A model generated the notes under the pieces. The model did not search any database and had not been told where the DNA came from. It saw only the letters and a program-made list of their open reading frames with translations. The position numbers were made by a program, and so were the translations under genes. This document shows, in pieces, positions 6,395 to 64,000 of a DNA stretch of 64,000 nt (the first letter of the stretch is position 1; each line of letters opens with the position of its first letter). The stretch is from Streptomyces sp. NBC_01304 (lineage in GTDB: Bacteria; Actinomycetota; Actinomycetes; Streptomycetales; Streptomycetaceae). Location: assembly GCF_035975855.1 (NCBI RefSeq), contig NZ_CP109055.1, forward strand, positions 4,278,001-4,342,000, written 5' to 3'.

Positions 6395-7414
6395 TCACCT
6401 CAGCTTGGGGTCGAGGGCGTCGCGCACCGCGTCGCCGAGCATGATGAAGGCGAGCACCGTGATGCTCAGCGCGCCCGCCGGCCAGAGCAGCATGTGCGGG
6501 GCGTTGCGGATCTGCGGGGCGGCGTTCGAGATGTCGATGCCCCAGGAGACGGTCGGCGGCTTCAGGCCCACACCGAGGTACGACAGGGTCGCTTCGAGCG
6601 CGATGTACGTGCCGAGCGCGATGGTCGCCACGACGATCACCGGCGCGATCGCGTTGGGCGCCACGTGCCTGAGCAGCATCCGGCTGTTGCTCGCGCCGAG
6701 CGCCCGCGCCGCCTGGACGTAGTCGTTCTGCTTGGCCGTGATCACCGATCCGCGGGCGATGCGGGAGATCTGCGGCCAGCCGAGCAGAATCATGAAGCCG
6801 ACCACCGGCCAGATCCCGGAGCCGGTGACGACGGACAGGAAGACCAGGCCGCCGAGGATCACCGGGATGCCGAAGAAGATGTCGGCGAGCCGGGAGAGCA
6901 GCGCGTCCCACCAGCCGCCGAAGAACCCGGCGAGCCCGCCGAGCAGCGAGCCGAGCAGGGCGACGCCGAGGGTGGCGCAGATGCCGACCGAGATCGAGGC
7001 GCGCGCCCCGTACACGGTCCGGGTGTAGACGTCACAGCCCTGGGTGTCGAAGCCGAAGGGGTGCCCCGGCTGCGAACCCTGCTGGGACTTGGACAGGTCG
7101 CACTTCAACGGGTCGCCGCTTGCGATCAGTTGGGGCCAGATCGCGATGATGACGAGGAACAGGATCAGCAGCGACGAGACGATGAAGATGGGATTGCGGC
7201 GCAGCTGGTGCCAGGCGTCGGTCCACAGGCTGCGCGGCTTGTTCGCGGCACCGGTCCCGTCGGGAGCACCGACCCCGCCCGGCCCACCGGGGGCCTTCTC
7301 CAAACTCTCGCCCTCTTCCAACGCGAGGTCCATGGCACCGCCCTGGCCGGTCGGGGCGATCGCCTCGCTCTTGCCCGCCTTCAGCGGGTCGTACGGCAGC
7401 TCGGGCTCAGGCAT
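6395..7414 (-). CDS. Oligopeptide ABC importer permease (OppC/DppC type)
   Basis: A 339-residue inner-membrane permease. The N-terminal 70 residues are hydrophilic (MPEPELPYDP...), followed by a first membrane helix (IFIVSSLLILFLVIIAI), a periplasmic loop, and about five further helices. The cytoplasmic EAA loop is recognisable (DYVQAARALGASNSRMLLRH), which docks onto the ATPase. ATG 7414 is chosen because it overlaps the OppB stop in ATGCCTGA, the same 8-nt junction used between OppD and OppF. The preceding part of the open frame is out-of-frame OppB sequence. Confidence 0.95.
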   Translation of the reverse strand: MPEPELPYDPLKAGKSEAIAPTGQGGAMDLALEEGESLEKAPGGPGGVGAPDGTGAANKPRSLWTDAWHQLRRNPIFIVSSLLILFLVIIAIWPQLIASGDPLKCDLSKSQQGSQPGHPFGFDTQGCDVYTRTVYGARASISVGICATLGVALLGSLLGGLAGFFGGWWDALLSRLADIFFGIPVILGGLVFLSVVTGSGIWPVVGFMILLGWPQISRIARGSVITAKQNDYVQAARALGASNSRMLLRHVAPNAIAPVIVVATIALGTYIALEATLSYLGVGLKPPTVSWGIDISNAAPQIRNAPHMLLWPAGALSITVLAFIMLGDAVRDALDPKLR

Positions 7415-56455: not shown

Positions 56456-56499
56456 GCTGTAGGCCCGCTGTATGGAGTGCTGTACGCCCTGCTCATAGC
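56456..56499 (+). promoter_or_regulatory. Candidate SARP-controlled promoter of the mauE operon
   Basis: Three direct repeats of GCTGTA start at 56456, 56467 and 56479 (spacing 11 and 12 bp). The last is followed 7-8 nt later by CATAGC (56494-56499), a plausible -10. SARP regulators bind direct heptamer repeats spaced about 11 bp apart just upstream of the -10, which is what is seen. A start site about 8 nt further would fall at the GTG 56509, implying a leaderless mRNA, in agreement with the missing ribosome-binding site. Confidence 0.55.
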
Positions 56500-56508
56500 G
56501 TCGACGCG

Positions 56509-57090
56509 GTGTACTACCTCTGCCTCGCCATCAGGCTCCTGCTGATCGGCGTCTTCTCCGTAGCGACCTGGGGGAAGCTCAGACACCGGTCGGCGTTCCG
56601 TGAGTTCGTGCGCTCGGTCGCCGGTCTGCGCCTCTTCCCCGCCGGTCTTTCCACCGCGATCGCCGTCTCGGTGATCGCGGCCGAGGCCGGCTCGGTCGTC
56701 CTCCTCGCGATCCCCGCCGCCCCCGCCGTGACAGGCGTGGGCTTCGCGCTCGCCGGCTGTGTGCTCGCCGCCTTCGGGGCCGGGATCCTGGCCTCGCGGC
56801 GCGGGGGCGCCCGCGTGGCGTGCCGTTGCTTCGGCACGAAGGGCGTGGTGCTCGGCAAGCCGCACATCATCCGCAATCTGCTGCTGGCCGCGCTCGCGGC
56901 CGTCGGTTTGCTCGCCGTACTCACCGGTACGACGCCGAGCAGCCTGCACCCCGGAGGCACGGCCATCGCCGCCCTCGCGGCCGGTGTGGGCGGACTTCTC
57001 GTCGTACGCCTGGACGATCTGCTGGCCCTGATCGCTCCGACCGCGGATCCCCGCACCGGATCACCGACCGCTGACAGGAGTTTCCGTTGA
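56509..57090 (+). CDS. MauE/DoxX-like redox-associated membrane protein
   Basis: A 193-residue membrane protein with about five helices (residues 2-22, 42-62, 68-94, 119-137, 147-163). A CRCFG motif (Cys105, Cys107) lies at a helix end, as in the MauE family. MauE proteins work with a thioredoxin-fold partner (MauD) to form disulfides in exported proteins. Here the partner is the next gene, whose TTG start overlaps this stop in TTGA. The GTG 56509 start has no ribosome-binding site and may be leaderless. There are no methylamine dehydrogenase structural genes, so the target is probably another cysteine-rich product. Confidence 0.82.
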   Translation: MYYLCLAIRLLLIGVFSVATWGKLRHRSAFREFVRSVAGLRLFPAGLSTAIAVSVIAAEAGSVVLLAIPAAPAVTGVGFALAGCVLAAFGAGILASRRGGARVACRCFGTKGVVLGKPHIIRNLLLAALAAVGLLAVLTGTTPSSLHPGGTAIAALAAGVGGLLVVRLDDLLALIAPTADPRTGSPTADRSFR

Positions 57091-57686
57091 TCTTCCTAGT
57101 CGTCGCCGTGGTGCTGCTCGCCGCGCTGTGCTGCTTCGAACTGCTCGTCCTGTTCGCCGTGTTGCGCCGGCTGCGGGAGCACGAGGAACGGTTCGCCGTG
57201 CTGGGCGATCACGCCTCCGCACCCGAACCGTACGACTACGCGGAGCTCGAGGGCCGGGCCGCTCCGTCGCTCGCCACGCTCCTGTCGGGCGAGGCCGGCC
57301 TGGTCGGCTTCTTCGACGTGAACTGCGACACCTGCCACGACAAGGCACCCGCGTTCACCCGGCTCGCACCCGAGCAGCAGGCCGCCTGCGCGATCGTCGC
57401 GGGCAGCCCGCCCGACGAACTCGTCGGGCTGCTCGACGGCGTACGGACCGTCGTGACCGGTCCCGAGAGCGACAAGTTGGTGAAGGAACTCGGCATCCAG
57501 GCATTTCCCACCTTCCTGTACGTCGGACCGACGGGCGTCGTGGAACGCGCGGGATTCGAGCCGGCGGACGCGGTCGCCCCGGCGCACGAACCAGAGGCAG
57601 TCACCGAGCACGGGCCAGAGGCCGTCACGGAGCATGAGCCCCAGGCCGTCACGGCGCACGAGCCAGAGGCAGTCACGGCGCGATGA
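57087..57686 (+). CDS. Membrane-anchored thioredoxin-fold protein (MauD-like) with octapeptide tail
   Basis: A 199-residue protein. An N-terminal anchor (residues 1-26, IFLVVAVVLLAALCCFELLVLFAVL) precedes a thioredoxin-like domain (about 45-155) with redox pair Cys80/Cys83 in VNCDTCHDKAP and the cis-proline in QAFPTFLYV. It lacks WCxxC but keeps CxxC, as in MauD/TlpA relatives. The last 33 residues are four octapeptides of the form HEPEAVTE (residues 167-198) plus Arg, encoded by four 24-bp DNA repeats at 57585-57680. TTG start overlapping mauE; its stop overlaps the exporter ATG (ATGA). Predicted to oxidise or isomerise cysteines outside the membrane. Confidence 0.8.
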   Translation: MIFLVVAVVLLAALCCFELLVLFAVLRRLREHEERFAVLGDHASAPEPYDYAELEGRAAPSLATLLSGEAGLVGFFDVNCDTCHDKAPAFTRLAPEQQAACAIVAGSPPDELVGLLDGVRTVVTGPESDKLVKELGIQAFPTFLYVGPTGVVERAGFEPADAVAPAHEPEAVTEHGPEAVTEHEPQAVTAHEPEAVTAR

Positions 57687-59572
57687 AGGACCGCACCGGT
57701 CCCCGGGGCCTGCTGCGACAGCTGCGGCTGGCCTGGCGAAGCTGCTGGGCCGCCGCACCCTGGATCTGGGCCGGGCATCTGCCGCTCGCCGTGACGGCGG
57801 GGCTCGTCCCCATGGCCACGGCCTGGCTGACCAAACTGCTCGTCGACGCGCTCGCCGAGGGCCGGCAGTCGGCCGCGGTGCAGGCCGCGACCGGCCTGCT
57901 GGTGGTGGGCCTGCTGAGTGGGGTGCTTCCGCAGCTCACACAGTTCCTGGGCAATGAACTCCGGCGGCGCATGGACTGGTTCCTGCGCGACCGGCTGCAC
58001 TCCGTGGTGGGCCGATTCCAGGGCCTGTCCCGTTTCGAGGATCCCCGGCTCATCGACCGGCTGCGGATGGCGGCCCAGACGACCGGCGAGACGCTGATGC
58101 CCGTGACCGGCAGCATGGCGGACATGGGGCGCAACATCATCGCCCTGCTCAGCCTGCTCGCCACGCTCCTCGTGCTGAGCCCCGTGATGGCGGTCGTGGT
58201 GCTGATCGCCGCGGTGCCGGTGCTCGTCGCCGAACTGTGGCTCTCGCGCAAGCGCGTGAACATGGTGGCGGCGACCTCGGCCGGCATCCGCAAGGAGCTG
58301 TTCTACTCCGCCCTGATCACCGAGGAGTCCGCGGCCAAGGAGGTGCGGCTGTTCGGCCTCGGCGACTTCCTCAAGGGGCGGATGCTGCGCGAACTGCACA
58401 CGATCCAGCGCGCGGAACGCCGCCTCGACCGGCGTGACGCCGCGGTGCAGAGCGGGCTCGCGGCGCTGTCCGCGCTGGTCGCGGGCGCGGGTCTGATCTG
58501 GACCGTGCAGGCGGCCGCGGCCGGCCGGCAGACGCCCGGTGACATCGTCGCGTTCGTCGCCGCGGTGGCCGGGGTGCAGGCGGCGCTGATCGGCCTGGTC
58601 GGCAATATCGGGCTGGCCCATCAGGCGCTGCTGATGTTCTCGTACCACACCTCGGTGATCGAGCTGCCGGACGACGTGGCACCTCGTGACGGCGGCGTAC
58701 GCGGTGAGGGGCCGCTGCCCGCTCTGCGGCGCGGCATCGAACTGCGCGACGTCTGGTTCCGTTACGACGAGAGCCACCCCTGGGTGCTGCGGGGCGTCAA
58801 CCTCTTCATCCCTGCGGGCAGTTCGGTCGCCCTCGTCGGGCTCAACGGCGCGGGCAAGAGCACGCTGATCAAGCTGCTGTGCCGGTTCTACGACCCGGAC
58901 CGGGGATCGATCAGCTGGGACGGCGACGATCTGCGGGACGTGCCGCCCGCTCAACTGCGCGAGCGGATGGGCGTGTTGTTCCAGGACTACATGAACTACG
59001 ACCTGACGGCGGCGGAGAACATCGGCATCGGCGCGCTCGACCTGCTGGACGACCGCGCGAAGGTGACGGAGGCGGCCCGGCTCGCCGGCGCCCACGAGCT
59101 GGTAGACGGTCTGCCCCAGGGGTACGACACCATGCTGAGCCGCATCTTCTTCGCGGACGGCGAGGACGCCGAGGAGACACCCGGGGTGGTGCTTTCCGGC
59201 GGGCAGTGGCAGCGGCTGGCCCTCGCCAGGACGCTGCTGCGGCAGGACCGGGACCTGCTGATCCTGGACGAGCCCAGCGCGGGGCTCGACGCCCGGGCGG
59301 AGTACGAGATCCACGCCCGGCTGCGGGCGCACCGCGCCGGCACCACCAGCCTGCTGGTCTCGCACCGGCTGAGCGCCGTACGGGAAGCCGACACCATCGT
59401 GGTCCTCGAAGAGGGACGCATCACCGAGCAGGGCAGCCACGCCGAGCTCATGGCGCGTGCGGGCAGCTACGCGCAGCTGTTCACCGTGCAGGCGCAGGGC
59501 TATCAGGAGGTGGGCAGCAGCGCGGGCGGATCGGCCGAGGAGGGCTCGACGGAGAGCAGTTCGGCCGCGTAG
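57683..59572 (+). CDS. ABC exporter, fused permease-ATPase
   Basis: A 629-residue half-transporter of the type IV exporter fold. Six membrane helices lie between about 25 and 310; the ATPase domain from about 350 has Walker A GLNGAGKST (Lys392), Q-loop LFQDYMNYD, signature LSGGQWQRLALA, Walker B LLILDEPSAGLD and the H-loop VSHRLS. There is no N-terminal C39 peptidase domain, so leader removal must be done elsewhere, plausibly by the signal peptidase at 61410. It is co-transcribed with the mauE/mauD-like pair. Its last 70 bp overlap the convergent SARP gene, giving a Ser/Gly/Glu-rich tail. Confidence 0.9.
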   Translation: MKDRTGPRGLLRQLRLAWRSCWAAAPWIWAGHLPLAVTAGLVPMATAWLTKLLVDALAEGRQSAAVQAATGLLVVGLLSGVLPQLTQFLGNELRRRMDWFLRDRLHSVVGRFQGLSRFEDPRLIDRLRMAAQTTGETLMPVTGSMADMGRNIIALLSLLATLLVLSPVMAVVVLIAAVPVLVAELWLSRKRVNMVAATSAGIRKELFYSALITEESAAKEVRLFGLGDFLKGRMLRELHTIQRAERRLDRRDAAVQSGLAALSALVAGAGLIWTVQAAAAGRQTPGDIVAFVAAVAGVQAALIGLVGNIGLAHQALLMFSYHTSVIELPDDVAPRDGGVRGEGPLPALRRGIELRDVWFRYDESHPWVLRGVNLFIPAGSSVALVGLNGAGKSTLIKLLCRFYDPDRGSISWDGDDLRDVPPAQLRERMGVLFQDYMNYDLTAAENIGIGALDLLDDRAKVTEAARLAGAHELVDGLPQGYDTMLSRIFFADGEDAEETPGVVLSGGQWQRLALARTLLRQDRDLLILDEPSAGLDARAEYEIHARLRAHRAGTTSLLVSHRLSAVREADTIVVLEEGRITEQGSHAELMARAGSYAQLFTVQAQGYQEVGSSAGGSAEEGSTESSSAA

Positions 59573-61413
59573 AGCCGGATCAGCTCCGGCATCCGGAACA
59601 GGCCCCCGCCCACCGCGTCCAGGAGCCAGCCCTCCACCAGGGCGTCCAGGATGCGCAGCACCTGCCGCGCGTCGACGCCGAGCAGTGCCGCCGCGTCGGC
59701 CGCCGTGAACTCCTGTGCGCCGAGCAGGCTCAGCCGCGCGAACGCCTCCGGGGCTCCGGCGACGCCCCGGACGAGCAGTTCGCGCAGGCTAGCCCCGATG
59801 CAGGCGCGCACGGACAGTCCGCCGGCCTGGAGCTCGTCCAGCCGGGACCGCGGATCCCGCAGCCGGTCGCGCAGTGCCGCGGGCGACCAGTCCGGCCGGG
59901 CCCCGAGCCTCGCCCCGGCGATGCGCAGCGCCAGCGGGAGCCGGTCGCAGAGCCGGACGATCTCGGCCGTTTCCGTCAGCTCCGAGCGCACCCGCAGCCC
60001 GCCGGCAACCTGCGAAAGGAGCAGCAGCGCATGCTCCTCGGCGAGCAGGCCCAGCCGGACGCGCACCGCGTCCACCTCCGGCAGCGCGCCCCGGCTGGTC
60101 ACCAGCACGGCACAGGCGCCGCTCGCCGGGATCAGCGGCAGGACCTGGGCGCCGTCGACCACGTTGTCAAGGACGATCAGCAGGCGCCGGCCGGCGGTGA
60201 CCGCCTGGTACAGCGCCGCCAGTTCGGCCGGCCCCTCCGGCACCCGGTCCGGCGGTACGTCCAGCGCCCGCAGGAACCGGCCAAGGACCTCCACGACGCC
60301 CATCCGACCCGTACCGGGGCCGTCGCCCTGGAGGTCCGCGTACAGCCGGCCGTCGCCGTACGTGTCACCGAGCTCGTGCGCGACGCGCAGTGCCAGCGCC
60401 GACTTGCCGACGCCGCCGCGCCCGTACAGCACGACGGTGGGAGCCCCCGCGCGGACGGTCGACGGCGGGCCGAGGGCGGCGCGGACCGCGGCTATCTCGC
60501 GGCTCCTGCCGGTCAGGACGCAGGACTCCCCGGGCAGTTGGTAAGGAACGCTGCGCCCGGCCGGCCGGGCGGTCCGGGGTGCGGGCGGCCGCGTCGCGCC
60601 GCCGACCCGCGACAGCGCCGGATCGCGCATGAGGATCGCCCGCTGCAGCTGGCGCAGCTCCCCGCCGGGGTCCACGCCGAGCTCGTCCCTGAGCAGCTCA
60701 CGTGTTTCGGTGAAGACCTCCAGCGCACCCGGCACATCACCGCTCTGGTAAAGCGCCCGCATCAGCCGCCCGACCAACTGCTCGTGCATGGGGTGCACCT
60801 TGACCGCCTGGCGGAGCCGGTCGATGGCCGGGGCGTAGCGCTCGAGCCCGATCTCTATGTCGGCGAGCCGCTCGGCCGTACCGAGATGCGCATGGGTCAG
60901 GTGCTCCGTGAACAGCCGCAGCTTCGGCCCCTGCACGACGTCTTCCAAGGGCGCCGCACGCCACAACTCCAGGGCCTGCGCGAAGTGTTCGCAGGCCCTG
61001 GCGAGGTCACCCTGGGCGGCCGCGCGGCGACCCTCGGCGTCCAGCGTGCGGTAGCGGAGGTGTTCGAGCTCGATGCCGGCCATCCGCAGCGTGTAGCCGG
61101 ACCGGGAGGTGACCAGCCGGTCCGGCCCCGTTGCCGCGTCCCCGGCCAGCATGCGGCGCAACTGCATCACGTACGTCCGCAGATTGGCCACCGCCGACTT
61201 CGGTGGCTCGGCCCCCCAGATCTCTTCGATCATCGTCGCCAGCGGAACGGCCCTGCCCTCGCTGACGAGCAGCAGCGCGAGGGCGGTACGCAGCTTCGTC
61301 GCGCCGATCAGCACGGGCCGGCCGTCGACGCGCAGCTCCAGCGCGCCGAGGATGCCGGCGTCGACGGCGCCTGTCCGGGTCTGGGTCCTGCTCCCCAGTG
61401 CGGCGATGCTCAC
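59503..61413 (-). CDS. SARP-family transcriptional regulator (AfsR-like, with NB-ARC domain)
   Basis: A 636-residue regulator. An OmpR-like winged helix (about 20-113, LRTALALLLVSEGRAVPL, VANLRTYVMQLRRML) precedes the bacterial transcriptional activation domain (about 120-265) and an NB-ARC/STAND ATPase with P-loop GRGGVGKS (331-338), kinase-2 LLIVLDNV and LPLALRIAG. The C-terminus is winged-helix-like; no TPR block is evident, so it is shorter than AfsR. SARPs activate biosynthetic operons through direct repeats. The GTG 61413 start overlaps the signal-peptidase stop (GTGA), so the two are coupled, and the 3' end overlaps the exporter gene by 70 bp on the opposite strand. Confidence 0.9.
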   Translation of the reverse strand: MSIAALGSRTQTRTGAVDAGILGALELRVDGRPVLIGATKLRTALALLLVSEGRAVPLATMIEEIWGAEPPKSAVANLRTYVMQLRRMLAGDAATGPDRLVTSRSGYTLRMAGIELEHLRYRTLDAEGRRAAAQGDLARACEHFAQALELWRAAPLEDVVQGPKLRLFTEHLTHAHLGTAERLADIEIGLERYAPAIDRLRQAVKVHPMHEQLVGRLMRALYQSGDVPGALEVFTETRELLRDELGVDPGGELRQLQRAILMRDPALSRVGGATRPPAPRTARPAGRSVPYQLPGESCVLTGRSREIAAVRAALGPPSTVRAGAPTVVLYGRGGVGKSALALRVAHELGDTYGDGRLYADLQGDGPGTGRMGVVEVLGRFLRALDVPPDRVPEGPAELAALYQAVTAGRRLLIVLDNVVDGAQVLPLIPASGACAVLVTSRGALPEVDAVRVRLGLLAEEHALLLLSQVAGGLRVRSELTETAEIVRLCDRLPLALRIAGARLGARPDWSPAALRDRLRDPRSRLDELQAGGLSVRACIGASLRELLVRGVAGAPEAFARLSLLGAQEFTAADAAALLGVDARQVLRILDALVEGWLLDAVGGGLFRMPELIRLYAAELLSVEPSSADPPALLPTS

Positions 61414-61862
61414 GCTCTTTCACCGCCGAGCCGGCGCACCATGACGCCCAGCAGGCGGTCGGCGGGGAAGAAGCCCCGCTGCCGGGAGTCGATGCCGTCG
61501 GGGTTGTCCCCGAGGACGACGAGCGAGCCGGCCGGCACCGCGTCCACCGCGGGCTGCCCGTCGCGTCGCGTCACGCCCGCGGGCACCGGCTGACCGGGCA
61601 GTGCGGCGACCCGCTTGACGTTCCAGGCGCCCTCCACGACAGGGGCGTAGTCCCCGGTGATGTCCGGCGGTCTCAGCACGACCACGTCGCCCCGGCTGAG
61701 CCGGTCGGCGGTTCTGCGGCGTACGACGATCCGGTCTCCGTCGTGGAGGGTCGGGGACATGCTGCGTCCCGACACCGTCACCACCACATACGACCTGCGA
61801 ACGTGAAAGGCGGCCGCCAACGCGGCCGCCAGGAACACGGATACACCGGTGGTCAGCCGCAT
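61410..61862 (-). CDS. S26 family type I signal peptidase
   Basis: A 150-residue membrane-anchored peptidase. One N-terminal helix (about residues 5-20) precedes box B SGRSMSPTL with nucleophile Ser34, box D NVKRVAALPG with general base Lys83, and box E GDNPDGIDSRQRG. It is shorter than housekeeping LepB. ATG 61862 is chosen because GGGAGG lies 7 nt upstream; the open frame to 61937 has no such signal. Being co-transcribed with the SARP and divergent from a cysteine-rich peptide gene whose leader ends in AQA, it is probably a dedicated leader peptidase. Confidence 0.88.
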   Translation of the reverse strand: MRLTTGVSVFLAAALAAAFHVRRSYVVVTVSGRSMSPTLHDGDRIVVRRRTADRLSRGDVVVLRPPDITGDYAPVVEGAWNVKRVAALPGQPVPAGVTRRDGQPAVDAVPAGSLVVLGDNPDGIDSRQRGFFPADRLLGVMVRRLGGERA

Positions 61863-61979
61863 CTCCGTTGCCTCCCGCCGTTGTTGCTCAAGGTACGTAG
61901 ATCGCGGAACAGCAGGATCATCCGAAACACGCGTCACTCATGTCAATCCCCTTACAACGAACGGGTGTTCGCGCCCGGA

Positions 61980-62019
61980 GGTACGTGACTGTACGAGCCG
62001 CTGTACCGGTGCGCATATG
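61980..62019 (+). promoter_or_regulatory. Candidate SARP-controlled promoter of the cysteine-rich peptide gene
   Basis: Direct repeats CTGTACG (61989) and CTGTACC (62001) are preceded by a weaker GGTACG (61980) and followed after 6 nt by CATATG (62014-62019), a possible -10. The repeats and layout match the CTGTA triplet upstream of the mauE-like gene at 56456-56499. An inverted repeat GCATAC/GTATGC (62026-62031, 62046-62051) lies in the predicted leader. Confidence 0.5.
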
Positions 62020-62075
62020 TCTCACGCATACGGTGCGGATGCGGCGTATGCCACGCCGGTGAGGCTGGAGAAGGG

Positions 62076-62279
62076 ATGCATCACATGACAGGGATGTTGA
62101 GGAAGATGGGCGACAAGGCACTGGCGCGCCTCGCGCCCAGCGCGACCGCACAGGCCGATTCCTCCTTCTACAGGCACTGCTACTGCCGCGAGCGGTCCGA
62201 CTTCCGGCAGCTGTGCCACATCGTCGGCGGCACGACCGGCTGTGGCTCGTGTCAGGCGTACCGCACCTGCGGCGGCTGA
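62076..62279 (+). CDS. Six-cysteine secreted peptide precursor (candidate bacteriocin-like peptide)
   Basis: A 67-residue precursor. The N-terminal part (1-27) is basic and amphipathic (LRKMGDKALARLAPSATAQA) without the hydrophobic core of a Sec signal, and ends in AQA, a type I signal-peptidase site. The predicted 40-residue product (28-67) has six cysteines (35, 37, 47, 56, 59, 65) in the pattern CxC-x9-C-x8-CxxC-x5-C, plus Gly-rich turns, and ends CGG. GGAG lies 5 nt before ATG 62076, and a strong terminator follows. With a MauE/MauD-like pair, an exporter, a signal peptidase and a SARP next door, three disulfides are expected. I do not recognise the peptide family; antimicrobial or signalling activity is inference. 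Confidence 0.75.
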   Translation: MHHMTGMLRKMGDKALARLAPSATAQADSSFYRHCYCRERSDFRQLCHIVGGTTGCGSCQAYRTCGG

Positions 62280-62335
62280 CCACACCCTGAGGCGCGAGCC
62301 CCCGGCCGCGCCACAGACGCACCACCTGGAAACAA

Positions 62336-62368
62336 CAAGGGGTCGGCTCCCGAGGAGCCGACCCCTTG
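62336..62368. terminator. Terminator of the cysteine-rich peptide gene
   Basis: A 15-bp perfect stem (CAAGGGGTCGGCTCC / GGAGCCGACCCCTTG) with loop CGA, 57 bp after the peptide stop. Its AAGGGGTCG...CGACCCC core resembles the ychF terminator at 63871-63898. Confidence 0.88.
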
Positions 62369-62420
62369 CCATCTGTACGCCTGTTGTACGCCTCACGAAC
62401 TGCGGGACCGCAGTCGCGGG

Positions 62421-62443
62421 CTGCTCACACGTTGAAGCGGAAC
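62421..62443 (-). other. Duplicate of the ychF 3' end
   Basis: Twenty-one of 23 bases match 63944-63966, which is the last coding segment and stop of ychF. On the minus strand this copy still reads FRFNV-stop, but upstream codons (…TFTQVGALRQA) do not resemble YchF. It lies about 50 bp beyond a terminator, the same spacing as at the real ychF end. It may be an old attachment-site or recombination scar. Confidence 0.6.
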
Positions 62444-63287: not shown

Positions 63288-63557
63288 ATGACGCAGCCTC
63301 TGCCCATAGAGTCCATCCGAGACGTACGCGCACACCTCGCCGAGGTCGTAGAGCGCGCCGATCGCGAGGACGTGCCCACCGTGATCACTCGCCGGGGCAA
63401 GCAAGTCGCCGCGGTCGTTTCCATCGAGGTACTACGCAAGTACCAGGAGTGGGAAGAGCGCGAGATCAACCGGATCATCGACGAGCGCATGGCGAATCCG
63501 GCAACCGGCATCCCGATCGAGGACATCATGAGGGAGACGCTGGCGCGCAGTGAGTGA
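63288..63557 (+). CDS. Type II antitoxin, Phd/YefM family
   Basis: An 89-residue protein. The N-terminal Phd/YefM fold (PIESIRDVRAHLAEVVERADREDVPTVITRRGKQVAAVVS in segments, residues 5-48) binds DNA; the C-terminal acidic helix (YQEWEEREINRIIDERM...) should wrap and neutralise the toxin. ATG 63288 is chosen over the upstream GTG frame because the TGTACA operator lies just before it. It overlaps the toxin start by 8 nt, so synthesis is coupled. Confidence 0.9.
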   Translation: MTQPLPIESIRDVRAHLAEVVERADREDVPTVITRRGKQVAAVVSIEVLRKYQEWEEREINRIIDERMANPATGIPIEDIMRETLARSE

Positions 63558-63813
63558 GTACCGCACCGTCTTCCGGCCTGAGGCCCAGGCCGAACTGCGC
63601 AAAGTTCCGCGCGACATGGCACTTCGCATCCTGGCCAAGCTGACCGAGCTCGAGGGTGATCCGCTCGGCTTCAACACCACCGCGCTCGTATCGCAGCCGG
63701 ACCGTCGCCGACTGCGAGTCGGCGATTACCGAGTCGTCTACACGATCGACAACGGGGAACTGGTGGTGTGGGTCGTGCACATCGGGCATCGCTCGACCGT
63801 CTACGACACCTGA
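63550..63813 (+). CDS. Type II toxin, RelE/ParE family
   Basis: An 87-residue basic protein of the RelE/ParE fold: YRTVFRPEAQAELRKVPRDMALRILAKLTELEGDP (two N-terminal helices), then the sheet RRLRVGDYRVVYTIDNGELVVWVVHIGHRSTVYD. The RxGxYRVxY motif and the H-R-S-x-Y end are typical of RelE mRNA interferases, which cut mRNA on the ribosome. GTG 63550 lies inside the antitoxin gene. A terminator follows at 63871. Confidence 0.92.
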   Translation: MSEYRTVFRPEAQAELRKVPRDMALRILAKLTELEGDPLGFNTTALVSQPDRRRLRVGDYRVVYTIDNGELVVWVVHIGHRSTVYDT

Positions 63814-63858: not shown

Positions 63859-63870
63859 GAGCACAACGAA

Positions 63871-63898
63871 GGGGTCGACACCGCAAGGCGTCGACCCC
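63871..63898. terminator. Terminator between the toxin gene and ychF
   Basis: A 12-bp stem with one mismatch (GGGGTCGACACC / GGCGTCGACCCC) and GCAA tetraloop, between convergent genes. Bidirectional use is likely. Confidence 0.8.
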
Positions 63899-63947
63899 TC
63901 CCGACCTGCACACTTGACGCGAAATCTTACGTGCAGTAGCGAACTGG

Positions 63948-64000
63948 TCACACGTTGAACCGGAACTCCACCACGTCCCCGTCCTGCATGACGTAGTCCT
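63948..64000 (-). CDS. ychF: Redox-regulated ATPase YchF, 3' end only
   Basis: The last 16 codons and TGA stop are visible on the minus strand, translating as DYVMQDGDVVEFRFNV. This is the conserved end of the TGS domain of YchF/OLA1, an ATPase of the Obg GTPase superfamily that binds ribosomes. The rest of the gene lies beyond the window. Identification rests on the highly conserved C-terminal signature. A near copy of this end is present at 62421-62443. Confidence 0.85.
   Translation of the reverse strand, partial: DYVMQDGDVVEFRFNV

Follow-up and report, generated by a model that had tools for sequence, protein, structure and literature searches.

The 64-kb window, the whole 64,000-nucleotide stretch of the Streptomyces chromosome analysed here, carries a locus belonging to a broader class, widespread and little described, in which the same leader heads very different cysteine-rich cores. 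Computation recovers a recurring gene set, a shared leader, repeats common to two promoters and even cysteine counts, and together these make it quite probable that the locus specifies a SARP-controlled pathway yielding a small disulfide-stabilised peptide. Relatives occur in several genera with the gene set kept together, confirming that the locus exceeds chance.

The precursor gene (+) is divergent from an S26-SARP pair (-), which converges on a mauE-trx-ABC operon (+), and a check of the frames found all parts named by the first-pass annotation where it had placed them. The operon opens with a MauE-like membrane protein bearing a CxCFG motif (56509-57090, +, GTG start), which the PF07291 match places in the MauE family (E 3.9e-19; 69.7 bits against a cut-off of 27). 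A MauD-like thioredoxin-fold protein, Trx (57087-57686, +, TTG start), and an ABC exporter of MsbA/P-glycoprotein type (57683-59572, +; ABC_membrane and ABC_tran matches) follow. The Pfam scan returned nothing for Trx, whose sequence reads as one N-terminal membrane helix, CDTC and, further on, FPTF; it also found no C39 peptidase domain in the ABC protein, which thus falls outside the C39 peptide exporters. The minus strand encodes a SARP regulator with BTAD and NB-ARC domains (59503-61413, -; PF03704, E 1.3e-35) and an S26 signal-peptidase-like protease with Ser-Lys motifs (61410-61862, -), a family member by PF10502 (E 1.1e-21; 78 bits against a cut-off of 22.9). Overlaps of 4 nt join S26 to SARP (61410-61413), MauE to Trx (57087-57090) and Trx to ABC (57683-57686), and the convergent ABC and SARP genes share 70 nt. 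A signal peptidase I coupled to a SARP, and an operon of MauE, a CxxC thioredoxin-fold protein and a C39-less ABC protein, had both been proposed, and coordinates and domains agree. The proposed absence of the usual RiPP enzymes also holds for the seven proteins scanned, none of which is a LanB/C/M, YcaO, radical SAM or lasso cyclase protein, so that the cassette lacks the class enzymes of lanthipeptides, lasso peptides, sactipeptides and LAPs.

Two start codons require comment. The S26 frame opens at GTG 61937, and ATG 61862, giving a 150-residue protein, is its likely start because GGGAGG lies 8 nt before it and a promoter-like site (TTGACA/GATGAT, 61946-61917) stands ahead of it. The 67-residue precursor frame first annotated at 62076-62279 exists, with its six cysteines and AQA motif; translation most likely begins at ATG 62085, 9 nt downstream of the first, because the Shine-Dalgarno-like GGAGAAGGG (62067-62075) directly adjoins that first ATG but sits 9 nt ahead of the second, and because the database version has 64 residues. 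The precursor gene (62085-62279, +) thus comprises a leader (62085-62156) and a six-cysteine core (62157-62276). A 15-bp hairpin 3' of it (62336-62368, +; -32.4 kcal/mol, z -6.9, no T run) possibly marks the transcript end; a scan for consensus terminators found none.

A single-sequence search with the precursor returned 3 proteins, a precursor profile 45 at E ≤ 1 and a wider profile 48. With E ≤ 0.001 as the limit, 7 of 392 genus genomes and 18 of 394 class genomes have a match, in several cases a weak one. Carriers include Nonomuraea, Streptomyces, Lentzea, Virgisporangium and a strain filed as Nocardia and, by database name, Streptosporangium, Amycolatopsis, Kibdelosporangium and Actinophytocola (45-protein profile) and Kribbella (wider profile). 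Two branches are apparent, one with six cysteines and one with eight, the two extra cysteines appearing together (AACPPD...NGAC). The window precursor differs from its nearest relative at 17 first, 17 second and 26 third codon positions, with 18 synonymous and 20 non-synonymous codons; with the 45 profile relatives, this gives the frame the coding conservation on which the first-pass reading depended. The precursor fits no Pfam or NCBIfam family, and matches over 43 relatives are scattered, with one or two members each. In an AlphaFold model built with 43 sequences, the leader is of low confidence and the core forms three strands (pLDDT about 90 for residues 31-60; pTM 0.45); a PDB comparison found no significant match to the model, laterosporulins being among the weak ones.

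The partner genes travel with the precursor. The 35 stretches compared represent 34 distinct loci (L018 repeats L004), namely the window and 33 reached via the precursor, and five partner profiles were seeded with the window proteins and trained on those same 34 loci. MauE, Trx, ABC and S26 all lie beside the precursor in 31 of the 34, the exceptions being L021 (SARP only), L063 (no ABC) and L073 (no S26), and gene order differs between loci. The set was thus found conserved together, as the first-pass annotation required, for these four proteins; the SARP that it had included is inconstant, with a strong match in 26 of the 34 loci and none in 8. Three genes flanking the cassette in the window (GNAT, a membrane protein and a secreted protein) had no match in 12 related-locus stretches. 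MauE itself is common, with some match in 47 of 61 relatives, and some MauE loci are no cassette. An adjacent MauE-Trx pair of cassette type is carried by 28 of 150 sampled Streptomyces genomes (36 pairs, hand count).

Several individual loci merit description. At L021:10001-10186, in Virgisporangium, a window-type precursor and a SARP occur in a 20-kb stretch that lacks MauE, Trx and S26, and this precursor may be an orphan or be served by a distant cassette. The source genome of the window has a second cassette (L118, contig C1, ~838.7-842.6 kb), with S26, ABC, Trx, MauE and an eight-cysteine precursor whose core begins CGWNCWNDCWQC. Genome G161 (contig C1, 4347794-4359926) has two equally scoring MauE-Trx pairs that face opposite ways, separated by ~11 kb; a cassette seems to have been duplicated there in inverted form, and L171 contains one half. 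MauE matches also fall within 998- and 990-residue frames (G137:C122:23531-24031 and G159:C444:32449-32949) with no Trx match nearby; these are perhaps fusions.

After MauE searches had brought in further loci, a 21-column weight matrix of the leader set 70 ORFs apart from the rest, at a threshold of 14.5 bits picked after the gap had been seen (lowest accepted 14.9, next 13.5). The leader consensus is roughly LGDRxLxRLVPxxxAxA, and the cores share little but cysteine, so that a ribosomal precursor with a conserved leader and a variable core, as expected of a RiPP, is what the 70 ORFs present. Core cysteine number played no part in their choice, and one of the accepted leaders itself contains a cysteine. 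Cysteine counts are even in all 70 (49 with 6, 18 with 8 and 3 with 10), distributed over 48 spacing patterns. The cores form 52 clusters at 70% identity, 31 at 50%, 5 at 40% (single linkage) and 1 at 35%, and the parity count does not amount to 70 independent tests because clusters at the two lower identities are so few. Counts are likewise even in 45 of 45 precursor-profile proteins (25 with 6, 20 with 8); the database match P0053 has one cysteine and a core that reads like a frameshift. In a control of 42-residue ORF tails, from which precursors were not removed, tails with 4-10 cysteines were even in 594 cases and odd in 221, an excess that arises because 466 have exactly 4; with at least 5 cysteines, 128 were even and 221 odd.

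With the matrix frozen, a forward test covered 20 of 24 previously unseen loci chosen solely by their MauE-Trx pair. A leader ORF was present in 17 of the 20 (18 ORFs; lowest accepted score 18.0, next 12.9), and none was found in L170, L178 or L174, the last of which starts at a contig edge. Counts were even in 17 of the 18 ORFs, two of those having 4 cysteines, and several of the cores are similar to one another or to ones obtained earlier (L160/L167, L162/L171, L161 with L135, L163 with L141 and L168 with L137). The single odd case, a seven-cysteine precursor near 6769 (-) of L172, may be broken, dimer-forming or wrongly bounded. Within these stretches of 7-13 kb, 19 of the 20 loci had an ABC match, 19 an S26 match and 5 a SARP. 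The even counts argue for full disulfide pairing, without telling which cysteine pairs with which, and suggest the core modification expected of a RiPP. By analogy, one conserved leader with highly varied cores appears to follow a plan like that of venomous snail toxins.

The two promoters of the window share a repeat. CTGTA occurring three times at intervals of 11 and 12 bases (56457-56484, +) forms a candidate SARP operator for the mauE operon, with a -10-like TCATAG (56493-56498, +) 8 nt after it, and from this spacing the mauE mRNA is probably nearly leaderless. Two further repeats, 12 bases apart (61989-62005, +), form the candidate operator of the precursor and are followed by 8 nt and then CATATG. 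The pattern CTGTA-N5-8-CTGTA has three matches in 64 kb (0.03 expected), two overlapping before mauE and one before the precursor, and no repeat pairs elsewhere in the window; in 100 shuffles that number was never attained. SARP sites are typically marked by direct repeats with a period of 11-12 bases, 8 nt before the -10, and the CTGTA repeats are likely SARP operators at both promoters. They occur in all seven Streptomyces loci with the window core type (the window, L004, L019 and L025-L028), where 10 of 10 arrays are followed by 8 nt and then a hexamer of the TCATAG, TCTATG, TCGTAG, CATATG or CGTATC kind. Among the other stretches scanned, L073, L130 and L136 have single matches, and L017, L020-L024 and L029, the last from the same genus with another core, have none. 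At precursor promoters the repeat is confined to the Streptomyces loci with the window core type, and the candidate operator is to be taken as a trait of the window subfamily, not of the whole class.

How might the parts work together? We infer oxidation, cleavage and export, together with their order and the side of the membrane, as follows. The SARP would switch on two promoters, those of the precursor and of mauE-trx-ABC, and the 24-residue leader would act as an address tag for membrane-bound machinery. MauE and the membrane-anchored Trx would oxidise the six core cysteines to three disulfides, passing electrons into the membrane, and the S26 protease would cut after AQA to give a 40-residue product, with a computed monoisotopic mass of 4472.86 when carrying three disulfides. 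The ABC transporter would then export the peptide, which is probably defensin-like or an otherwise bioactive secreted peptide. The catalytic parts are well kept: CxCF occurs in 34 of 34 cassette MauE rows and CxxC in 33 of 34 Trx rows (rows that include L018, the repeat of L004), and each of 43 cassette S26 frames has the catalytic motifs (SMxP, KR and DSR/DSK boxes). As a single pathway that exports, oxidises and trims a small peptide, the earlier proposal is supported by the gene set kept in 31 of 34 loci and the even cysteine counts; the charge patterns suggest another side of the membrane for oxidation and trimming than the one it had pictured.

Oxidation and cleavage could equally well be placed on the cytoplasmic face before export or not, an even call on the sequences at hand; the strongest alternative, which is possible if somewhat doubtful, is that the ABC protein exports a reduced precursor, and that MauE and Trx oxidise it and S26 trims it on the outer face, as first drawn. 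The cytoplasm is normally reducing, the known signal peptidases I act outside, and MauE/MauD have been described as extracytoplasmic systems, all of which favours the outside. Against it, in 64 of 71 S26 frames and 72 of 74 from Trx, Lys and Arg are more numerous behind the single helix (median 3) than ahead of it (median 0), whereas three housekeeping Sip proteins have none after the helix by the same count. This count runs from the nearest start codon and truncates the N-termini of two of the three control Sips, so only its after-helix part discriminates, the N-terminal charges of those two being hidden. In MauE, median Lys/Arg numbers are 5 in loop 1 and 6 in the CxC loop and 0 in loops 2 and 4 (23 proteins, loop limits set by fixed offsets). 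The window S26 would have an Arg-rich N-terminus from GTG 61937, which would favour the outside, but one Arg before the helix from the more likely 61862. Under the positive-inside rule, these patterns suggest, with start codons uncertain, that the active sites of all three proteins (the domains of S26 and Trx and the CxC loop of MauE) are cytoplasmic and not, as had been pictured, outside. The leader does not look like a typical Sec signal: the best 10-residue mean hydropathy is 0.72 in the window (median 0.94 over 70 leaders), giving no strong hydrophobic core, and the last 22 residues carry a median of 6 charges.

A second comparison is with nickel superoxide dismutase, in which a short leader before a Cys-containing N-terminus is removed by an S26-type protease. 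The cassette leader resembles the SodN propeptide of the source genome, MLSRLFAPKVTVSA before HC; 99 of 1,700,806 background 11-mers score as high, a figure that is descriptive because the comparison was conceived after the leader had been seen. The window S26 scores 39.9 bits against the Ni-SOD maturation protease model TIGR02754 (SodX), below its cut-off of 63.25. In an S26 tree, the three housekeeping Sips form their own branch (100/99), apart from cassette S26, and SodX falls among the cassette S26 proteins next to L153 (unstarred support 92/93), a weak placement. The cassette shares a similar short leader and an S26-type protease with SodN/SodX, and its precursor is no SodN. This likeness is what speaks for cysteines serving as metal or cofactor ligands that MauE and Trx keep reduced, which we regard as improbable: no common ligand pattern is apparent among the 48 kinds of cysteine spacing, and even counts are what pairing predicts. 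A further reading, to which we give a shade less than an even chance, is that actinobacteria have a large class of disulfide peptides, guided by their leaders, whose maturation takes place at the cytoplasmic face: MauE, with its CxC loop inside, and an inward-facing Trx would draw electrons from the peptide into the membrane, an inward-facing S26 protease akin to the Ni-SOD type would remove the leader, and the ABC transporter would export the finished, bridged peptide.

An enzyme that escaped recognition might instead install thioethers or other cross-links, which would suit a compact cassette that, like a RiPP cluster, brings its own exporter and regulator, but this is more improbable still, as the cassette proteins have no such enzyme domain, the three flanking genes had no match in the 12 related-locus stretches and thioethers require no even cysteine count. 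That the precursor is just a small secreted protein of the ordinary sort, with no relation to its neighbours, as its AxA motif might suggest, is very improbable given the weakly hydrophobic leader, co-occurrence in both directions (31 of 34 loci, and 17 of 20 in reverse) and the repeat common to both promoters. The locus is treated as of the leader-guided ribosomal peptide kind, with no RiPP class membership claimed.

Similar clusters have been flagged before. The decRiPPter study of 2020 reported three mauE-containing candidate RiPP families from Streptomyces whose precursors have 8 or more cysteines, in clusters of mauE homologues (one also with mauD), a Cys-rich precursor, a transporter, a peptidase and a regulator, and suspected a part for mauE in modification (PMC7794033). 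These families resemble the cassette in genus and in each of those components; they differ in being three families from one genus, and the available text of that account describes no shared leader, cysteine parity, operator or S26 protease. The cassette class is set apart by description, and memberships may overlap: under the cysteine threshold in that text, the window core with 6 falls outside, and the eight-cysteine branch and L118 would fit. The first impression of an undescribed locus is tempered by this earlier notice of MauE-associated Cys-rich precursors (PMC7794033). A literature search, mostly without subscription papers, found no other relevant accounts.

Methylamine dehydrogenase maturation likewise uses a MauE-family membrane protein together with a thioredoxin-like partner anchored in the membrane, and their presumed substrate is rich in cysteine. 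The cassette differs in its 40-residue peptide substrate with its own leader and in its ABC exporter, and none of 43 precursors matched MauA (PF02975) at E ≤ 1. The laterosporulins, defensin-like bacteriocins of Brevibacillus, are leaderless according to a PDB title and, as above, give no significant fold match to the core. What this analysis adds is the shared leader, the cross-genus MauE-Trx-ABC-S26 cassette, the cysteine parity, the promoter repeats and the question of topology.

If true, the cytoplasmic reading would mean that enzymes form disulfides inside the cell in peptides destined for export, combined with a plan of conserved leader and hypervariable core. The cassette would be a genetically small, mineable actinobacterial route to disulfide-rich peptides, offering one leader, many cysteine scaffolds, a dedicated oxidase pair, a protease and an exporter. 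Should recognition depend mainly on the leader, the cassette might serve for making bridged peptides, and the unclear role of MauE/MauD becomes testable on a 40-residue substrate.

Two features beyond the cassette were noted by eye. Two overlapping small genes at 63292-63813 resemble a YefM-type antitoxin and a RelE-type toxin. Similar hairpins (GGGGTCG...CGACCCC) followed by CACACGTTGAA occur at 62335-62440 and 63865-63960, and the repeated unit reads like a short duplicated stretch.
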